64,000 nt of DNA from contig NZ_LT607751.1 in NCBI RefSeq assembly GCF_900090305.1, positions 4,960,001 to 5,024,000 on the forward strand, written 5' to 3'. Shown piece after piece: positions 34,379 through 37,376 of this stretch. Both the position numbers and the translations under genes were made by a program. The first letter of the stretch is position 1. Every line of letters starts with the position of its first letter. Source of the DNA: Micromonospora siamensis. GTDB taxonomy: Bacteria > Actinomycetota > Actinomycetes > Mycobacteriales > Micromonosporaceae. The notes beneath the pieces are model-generated. The model searched no databases and was not told the DNA's origin. It saw only the letters and a program-made list of their open reading frames with translations.

Positions 34379-37219
<2,841 letters not shown>

Positions 37220-37273
37220 GGCGTCTCCTCGGCGCGGTCATGTCGGACATGGGGAGTTTCTGCTTGCGGGCAC

Positions 37274-37299
37274 AAAAAAGCCCCTCGCGCAGGAGGGGC
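37274..37299 (-). terminator. leuS leader intrinsic terminator
   Basis: On the minus strand, GCCCCTC (37299-37293), a 6-base loop, GAGGGGC (37286-37280) and six T (37279-37274) form a classic intrinsic terminator. It lies 54-80 bases before the leuS ATG and after the leader peptide stop. Upstream, GCCGTGCTG/CAGCACGGC (37301-37309 with 37326-37334) forms a perfect 9-base stem that overlaps the leader stop codon and could compete in switching. Confidence 0.8.
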
Positions 37300-37324
37300 G
37301 GCCGTGCTGTCGCGCGTCAGCGGA

Positions 37325-37363
37325 TCAGCACGGCTCGGTAAGAAGCAGGAAGACTCCGGCCAT
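37325..37363 (-). CDS. leuS leader peptide MAGVFLLLTEPC
   Basis: A 12-codon open frame, with the consecutive Leu codons CTG CTT CTT at positions 6-8. CTT is rare in this GC-rich genome, which would sharpen stalling when Leu-tRNA is scarce. The ATG is 7 bases after a TACACT box, so the peptide is probably read from a leaderless mRNA. A 9-base stem covers its stop codon and a terminator follows. Attenuators of this kind have been predicted before upstream of leuS in some Streptomyces. Confidence 0.75.
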   Translation of the reverse strand: MAGVFLLLTEPC

Positions 37364-37370
37364 GACCGGC

Positions 37371-37376
37371 AGTGTA
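37371..37376 (-). promoter_or_regulatory. putative -10 box of the leuS leader transcript
   Basis: TACACT on the minus strand stands 7 bases before the leader peptide ATG. No clear -35 is seen. It sets the transcription start at the leader peptide, which fits the attenuator model. Confidence 0.5.

Follow-up and report, generated by a model that had tools for sequence, protein, structure and literature searches.

Directly upstream of leuS in Micromonospora siamensis, a short reading frame rich in leucine codons and two abutting hairpins, the second of which ends in a U-run, form a real and conserved unit. This arrangement is beyond chance, because its RNA folds 3.4 standard deviations below shuffled sequences, a covariance model of it has a hit in each of the 160 genus genomes searched, and both hairpins covary. 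The anatomy of the unit, its conservation, the covariation of its hairpins, its codon choice, its near-fixed spacing and its target gene were all observed directly. Most likely, this actinobacterial leuS leader is a ribosome-sensing attenuator that tunes leuS to the charging of tRNA-Leu.

We analysed a 64,000-nucleotide stretch of DNA (the window), in which the unit lies on the minus strand in the order TACACT box, leader frame, hairpin A, terminator and leuS (Table 1). The frame has 12 codons before its stop and reads ATG GCC GGA GTC TTC CTG CTT CTT ACC GAG CCG TGC TGA. Hairpin A is a perfect 9-bp stem whose 5' arm overlaps the leader TGA, a single spacer base separates it from the terminator stem, and leuS begins 54 nt after the U-run. 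The leuS product matches TIGR00396 at 870 bits against a cut-off of 548. All of these parts lie where the original prediction, made from the letters of the window, had placed them: the box 7 nt ahead of a 12-residue frame with CTG CTT CTT, the 9-base stem over the stop codon, the GC stem followed by six T, and leuS with its own ribosome site.

Table 1. Features of the leuS leader, in window coordinates.
Feature	Position	Strand	Basis	Details
-10 box TACACT	37371..37376	-	sequence	7 nt upstream of leader ATG
Leader peptide ORF MAGVFLLLTEPC, then stop	37325..37363	-	sequence	ATG 37363-37361, TGA 37327-37325
Regulatory Leu codons CTG CTT CTT	37340..37348	-	sequence	5 nt between last CTT and hairpin A
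Hairpin A	37301..37334	-	folds and covariation	5' arm GCCGTGCTG 37334-37326, 3' arm CAGCACGGC 37309-37301
Terminator hairpin GCCCCTC-CTGCGC-GAGGGGC	37280..37299	-	folds and covariation	7-bp GC stem
Terminator U-run	37274..37279	-	sequence	six T
leuS ribosome binding site GAGGAG	37225..37230	-	sequence	
leuS, leucine--tRNA ligase	34379..37219	-	TIGR00396	946 aa, ATG at 37219

The 181-nt RNA spanning 37380-37200 has a predicted folding energy of -79.6 kcal/mol, compared to -64.9 kcal/mol (SD 4.3) in shuffles. When the RNA ends at 37274, 37270, 37260 or 37240, both hairpins form, with a terminator-stem probability of 0.90-1.0. Extending it to 37220 leaves hairpin A in place and lowers the terminator stem to a probability of 0.26, because CUCCU in the 5' half of the terminator (37295-37291) then pairs with AGGAG of leuS (37229-37225). 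Between 36900 and 37900, no Rfam family reached its gathering score; a T-box, considered as a candidate, was rejected since the Rfam scan of the same interval returned none up to an E-value of 10.

The unit is widespread among relatives. Our sample of sequences upstream of leuS comprised 143 regions from the same genus, family and order, with some genomes represented twice and the extra regions chosen for diversity rather than at random. A parser recovered the unit from 141 of these regions, that is 122 distinct sequences (it was absent in L093 and L143); this parser demanded a -10-like box, in-frame CTN-CTN and a T-run, so that counts on the 122 distinct elements are conditioned on the box and on CTN-CTN. 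A search that dropped the demand for a box found CTN-CTN, 5 nt and GCCG in 139 of the 143 regions, and in 124 of these 139 TANNNT precedes the start codon by 6-7 nt, as expected for the -10 box that had been proposed just ahead of the leader start. The distinct leaders start with ATG (110) or GTG (12), and their peptides take the form M-...-LL(L)-x-x-P-C/R or stop early. GCCG lies 5 nt past the last Leu codon in 113/122 distinct elements. Relatives thus keep both the Leu codons, with CTT in last place in 115/122, and the terminator, whose stem covaries along with that of hairpin A; on their retention the original prediction had staked itself beforehand. The base that follows the last Leu codon (37339 in the window) is A in 108, C in 10 and G in 4 of the 122 distinct leaders, a preference for A that neither hairpin explains. 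One further leader (L177) carries T at this position.

We built a covariance model (R1) from 64 of the 122 elements; its training set includes the window locus and other members of the family and order and leaves out class members outside the order. At E ≤ 0.01, R1 matched every genus genome (160/160, all with E-values below 1e-15), 104/150 genomes of the order, 94/197 genomes of the class (49/90 genera) and 17/149 genomes of a draw from the phylum; the searches of more than 40 genomes ran with stricter filters, which makes these counts lower bounds. In the genome of the window, R1 gives 91.1 bits to the leuS copy and 15.8 bits to the runner-up. One family of the same order (f8) yielded no R1 match in 14 genomes and no Leu-Leu leader in the 4 of 4 regions upstream of leuS.

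Position relative to leuS was checked for the best class matches, not for each order and genus match. A leuS position is listed for 67 of the 94 best class matches, and 66 of these 67 lie directly before leuS; the other one (G458) sits on a different contig from its listed leuS. Reading 21 of the remaining 27 placed 12 before leuS (L252, L382-L384, L385 and L386-L392, with L390 judged by eye) and 9 before other branched-chain genes. Overall, 78 of the 94 best class matches lie before leuS, 9 lie before other genes, and 7 are unplaced (6 unread and G458). Nine of the 17 phylum matches fall outside the class: 2 before leuS, 3 before leuA-like genes, 1 before ilvB and 3 before other or unknown genes (L373-L381). 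To recognise leuS after L382-L384, L386-L392 and L373-L381, we relied on what we take to be a LeuS sequence motif. A degenerate pattern recovered at least 119 stretches; among the matches listed, 113 lie upstream of leuS and 5 near a stretch end, and the genera are mostly Streptomyces and Micromonospora, joined by Plantactinospora, Hamadaea, Jiangella, Actinomadura, Streptantibioticus, Serinicoccus and Saccharomonospora. A pattern match in a gammaproteobacterial MAG (L334) lacks the unit, and we dismissed it as chance.

Both hairpins bear the marks of selection on the RNA. We examined an alignment of 64 sequences that were not chosen for pairing and therefore test the stems independently. The two hairpins pair in 93.0% of cells (shuffles, 90.3%). 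Double-sided changes occur in 34 cells, compared to 11.0 in shuffles (0/500 shuffles as high); slid versions of the stems pair in only 40-53%. The stems thus covary in relatives, which the original prediction had proposed as a check. Hairpin A shows changes on both sides at 5 of its 9 pairs, and its basal pairs GCCG/CGGC are identical in 64/64 aligned sequences. In 17 distinct elements, the frame ends no more than one codon past the last Leu codon (for example, LLLT and then a stop); 16 of these keep GCCG at 5 nt and the remaining one (L135) has it at 6 nt. Because the RNA stem persists in elements that lack the peptide tail, the common EPC/EPR end of the peptide reflects the stem rather than the peptide itself. 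A parser requiring GCCG...CGGC and a terminator stem that starts within 5 nt succeeded on 172/175 leaders. The terminator loop (37292-37287 in the window) reads CTGYGY in 67 of 118 distinct elements and is unexpectedly uniform for an intrinsic terminator. Four leaders (L131, L136, L139 and L160) retain the hairpin pair with a degenerate U-run, so that termination there may need a factor, or the hairpin may have another role.

The Leu codons closest to hairpin A are sharply restricted. Among the 122 distinct leaders, CTT takes the last Leu position in 115 and CTC in 7, and the penultimate Leu codon is CTT in 63, CTC in 56 and CTG in 3. CTT had been called rare, and it is: 97 leuS fragments, a large part of them from close relatives, have it at 10 of their 2538 Leu codons, and it accounts for 10 of 1583 in 40 long window ORFs, whose selection partly by GC3 above 0.88 biases against CTT, giving a share of about 0.4-0.6% in nearby genes. 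The leuS gene of the window goes further and uses CTG at 70/70 Leu codons; with CTG at 68.5% of Leu codons in the 40 window ORFs, such uniformity would arise by chance with a probability of about 1e-12. The genome contains 55 tRNA matches, of which we read the 11 with long variable arms; the tRNA-Leu genes carry the anticodons CAG (twice), GAG, TAG, CAA and TAA (once each). CTT and CTC share tRNA-Leu(GAG). On the simplest reading, the leader watches this isoacceptor, which leuS avoids. A rare codon need not be the sensitive codon, since an explanation by rarity alone has been called too simple: an abundant isoacceptor that is little used remains charged (PMC1183508, in the portion accessible).

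These features suggest how the leader may work. Transcription would start at the leader ATG, and a ribosome would load on the resulting leaderless mRNA. With sufficient charged tRNA-Leu(GAG), the ribosome would pass CUU CUU and leave at the stop codon within hairpin A, upon which the terminator would form and most transcription would end ahead of leuS. If tRNA-Leu(GAG) runs short, the ribosome would wait on CUY/CUU, its leading edge touching the foot of hairpin A, and a larger share of polymerases would read through into leuS: the predicted response to leucine shortage is thus an increase in leuS transcription. The enzyme could still be made under such shortage because leuS uses only CUG, which is read by another isoacceptor. 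The front edge of a ribosome lies 12-13 nt from the first base of the A-site codon. With CTT in the A site, it would come to lie four or five bases into hairpin A, at the invariant GCCG. At a stop codon, the ribosome covers up to 12 nt beyond it, according to the accessible part of PMC4833913.

How a waiting ribosome would restrain the terminator is less clear-cut, and we weighed several explanations. In a classical four-segment attenuator, the stalled ribosome would open hairpin A, and its 3' arm (GCACGG) would pair with the terminator loop (CCUGC) as an antiterminator. We regard this as a tentative candidate that falls short of even chances. The candidate helix forms standard pairs in 89.6% of cells, above any slid version (79.8% for the next best); the uniformity of the terminator loop would fit, and the accessible part of PMC1262725 calls the leuS cases of two Streptomyces species classical and says that they contain antiterminator hairpins. 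Against it, the helix is weak and shows neither covariation nor an excess over shuffles, 257/500 of which score as high. Swapping partners between elements gave no own-pair advantage: 172/200 permutations were as good or better for arm 2 with the terminator 5' half, and 148/200 for the loop with its closing bases, whereas both known stems, as controls, beat all 200 permutations, partly by construction. In a loop permutation over 97 elements, own loops rank at 0.47, compared to 0.5 by chance, and when every pair of columns was scanned over 80 anchored rows, no helix appeared beyond the stems, whose columns were required to pair. The parser behind the 118 element combinations accepted only those with GCCG, CGGC, paired stems and no gap above 4 nt, and the stem columns of the scan, the control stems of the swap test and the gaps of the loop permutation are hence true by construction; the arms, moreover, are nearly invariant, which limits the power of the swap, loop and helix-count tests. 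Masked folding of the 118 elements points the same way. The mean terminator probability is 0.94 with no ribosome, 0.96 with a ribosome at the penultimate or at the last Leu codon and 0.91 at the stop, with a minimum of 0.0 in each of these four conditions, but this measure cannot decide since it also stays at 0.96-0.98 throughout in the E. coli trp leader. Upstream pairing of the terminator 5' half in the nascent RNA of the same 118 elements is 0.25 with no ribosome, 0.11 at the penultimate Leu, 0.25 at the last Leu and 0.41 at the stop, compared to 0.22 with no ribosome, 0.34 at the first Trp, 0.33 at the second Trp and 0.04 at the stop in E. coli trp under the same procedure. The order of ribosome positions in the leuS leaders is therefore reversed relative to E. 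coli trp, and the folding with stalled and unstalled ribosomes that had been proposed as a check did not reproduce the classical switch. Arm 2 becomes more available with the ribosome at the stop codon than with the ribosome at Leu. Two other pairings were tried and rejected. A second register, CGCGaCAG/CUGCGCG, is plausible in Micromonospora, but each of its pairs holds in only 36-55 of 51-64 rows. A helix between the Leu run and the terminator 3' arm is intact at its first six pairs in 58-64 of 64 rows and at the next in 30/62; we rejected it because the Leu run stays unchanged when the terminator stem changes (L115, L119 and L122) and because CTC in place of the conserved CTT would give the better pairing. 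The original prediction had spoken of a full transcription-attenuation unit. Its Leu leader, terminator and leuS target stand, but no antiterminator emerged from five tests of limited power, and the term is too strong because it calls for a stall-favoured structure that excludes the terminator, of which we found none. The earlier interpretation is partly supported, right in kind and in target and overstated as to completeness.

Ribosome-hairpin contact might act with no antiterminator at all: hairpin A at the mRNA entry would prolong the pause or gate the polymerase. Termination would then shift through ribosome-polymerase spacing or factor access. This is possible, if doubtful. The near-fixed distance from the last Leu codon to the invariant GCCG/CGGC pairs, the close succession of hairpin A and terminator stem in nearly all parsed leaders, and a spacing of 3-5 nt in other branched-chain leaders (see below) all fit, but each step is putative and the ribosome footprint is an assumed value. 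Translational control, in which the Leu codons or the terminator 5' half mask the leuS ribosome site, seems improbable. The CUCCU/AGGAG pairing in the longer window RNA agrees with it, and own pairs of terminator half and ribosome site do slightly better than swapped ones (21/300 permutations as good or better in 106 elements). However, the terminator probability averages 0.80 in 106 read-through RNAs, where the site, which was picked crudely, pairs with the terminator half at a probability above 0.5 in 1, and for the Leu run with the ribosome site 253/300 permutations over 106 elements were as good or better. An ordinary leaderless promoter and terminator with a chance ORF in between is hardly credible: high-GC DNA often contains short ORFs with Leu codons, and further ones occur in many of the upstream regions, yet the conserved Leu codons, the conserved spacing and the two conserved hairpins refute this reading. 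Ribosome-sensing attenuation of leuS is thus the explanation we favour, and the antiterminator that is usually assumed finds no support in these sequences. Mutation of the spacer or of an arm could separate classical attenuation from another form of ribosome-terminator control.

The closest known relative is the leuS leader of Streptomyces. Attenuators before leuS were predicted in S. coelicolor and S. avermitilis in 2005 (PMC1262725, accessible in part), in agreement with the earlier remark that some Streptomyces cases had been predicted, and the leuL2-leuS leader of S. lividans TK24, with the peptide MRAVRLLLSEPR, is reported in the accessible part of PMC8079986 to be leaderless and to have a hairpin and a U-run. 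Gene and peptide pattern are the same here (MRAVRLLLSEPR compared to MAGVFLLLTEPC), a hairpin and then a U-run follow in both, and both hairpins are present in class genomes whose leader encodes precisely MRAVRLLLSEPR. A single covariance model covers the two types, with E-values of about 1e-13 for the Streptomyces-type class matches, none of which is in the training set. Streptomyces-type leaders differ in the stem (GCCGCGC, whereas the window has GCCGTGC), in the penultimate Leu codon (CTG, compared to CTT) and in the box (TACCCT, compared to TACACT). Judged by sequence, the window element is the same element as the leuS leader reported for these three Streptomyces species. Our analysis extends this leader from Streptomyces to an element with matches in roughly half of the sampled class genomes and condenses it into a precise rule that can be tested: CTT, then 5 nt, a GCCG hairpin and a terminator. 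The open-licence literature that we searched held no description of a leuS leader outside Streptomyces. A comparative study by Lopatovskaya (2010) may already extend the leuS case.

With the enterobacterial trp and leu attenuators, the window leader shares cognate regulatory codons, a hairpin near these codons, a terminator and a cognate gene; that the leader of the leu operon contains rare Leu codons has long been known (PMC1183508, in its accessible portion). Unlike them, it has a presumed leaderless start, an abutting hairpin and terminator, no antiterminator that we could find, and, in the folding, a reversed order of ribosome positions. The LEU element of leuA likewise places a run of Leu codons before a leucine gene in Actinobacteria, and is described in the accessible part of PMC1262725 with a pseudoknot and a stem between Leu codons and Shine-Dalgarno sequence; the corresponding part of PMC8079986 reports no typical terminator for S. 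lividans leuA. A LEU-element-type pairing between the Leu run and the leuS ribosome site was not supported here, as it has no own-pair advantage in 106 elements, though the window's CUUCUU is able to pair with its GAGGAG.

Weak R1 matches led to further leaders, before ilvB and before citramalate/isopropylmalate-synthase-like, threonine-dehydratase-like and leuA-like genes; those of ilvB are already in print (PMC1262725 and PMC8079986, each accessible in part). Their parts follow in the order -10-like box, 4-8 nt, start, branched-chain codons (ATT, GTA, CTT), GC hairpin and abutting terminator. Compared to the leuS leader, those of ilvB, leuA-like and citramalate-like genes have Ile, Val and Leu codons, mostly a GCGCGC stem, a spacing of 3-5 nt and other targets. 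For the spacing, we took the branched-chain codon nearest the outermost stem pair and at least 3 nt away from it. This parsed 17 of 19 leaders, including one leuS leader (L252) and one wrong hairpin (L241); in the other 15, the branched-chain codon lies 3-5 nt from the outermost stem pair, and L234, L242, L249 and L251 have one more such codon at 1-2 nt from the stem. The similar layout before several branched-chain genes suggests one shared design. Speculatively, and we consider it unlikely as a whole, the actinobacterial leaders of leuS, ilvB, leuA-like, citramalate-synthase-like and threonine-dehydratase-like genes would be one class of antiterminator-free, ribosome-gated terminator, in which a rare-codon pause about 5 nt from an abutting hairpin-terminator pair acts by contact rather than by alternative pairing, and in which the leuS sensor would be tRNA-Leu(GAG), avoided by leuS itself.

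Individual leaders show how far this layout ranges. L233-L236, L239, L246, L250 and L251 combine Leu and Ile codons, a GC hairpin and a terminator before citramalate/isopropylmalate-synthase-like genes (DTTLRDGAQ...). L243, a CTT ATG ATC ATT leader of the same layout, precedes a threonine-dehydratase-like gene. Outside the class, L377 and L378 carry GTA CTT ATT ACC TAG, a hairpin and a terminator before small proteins with no assigned function.
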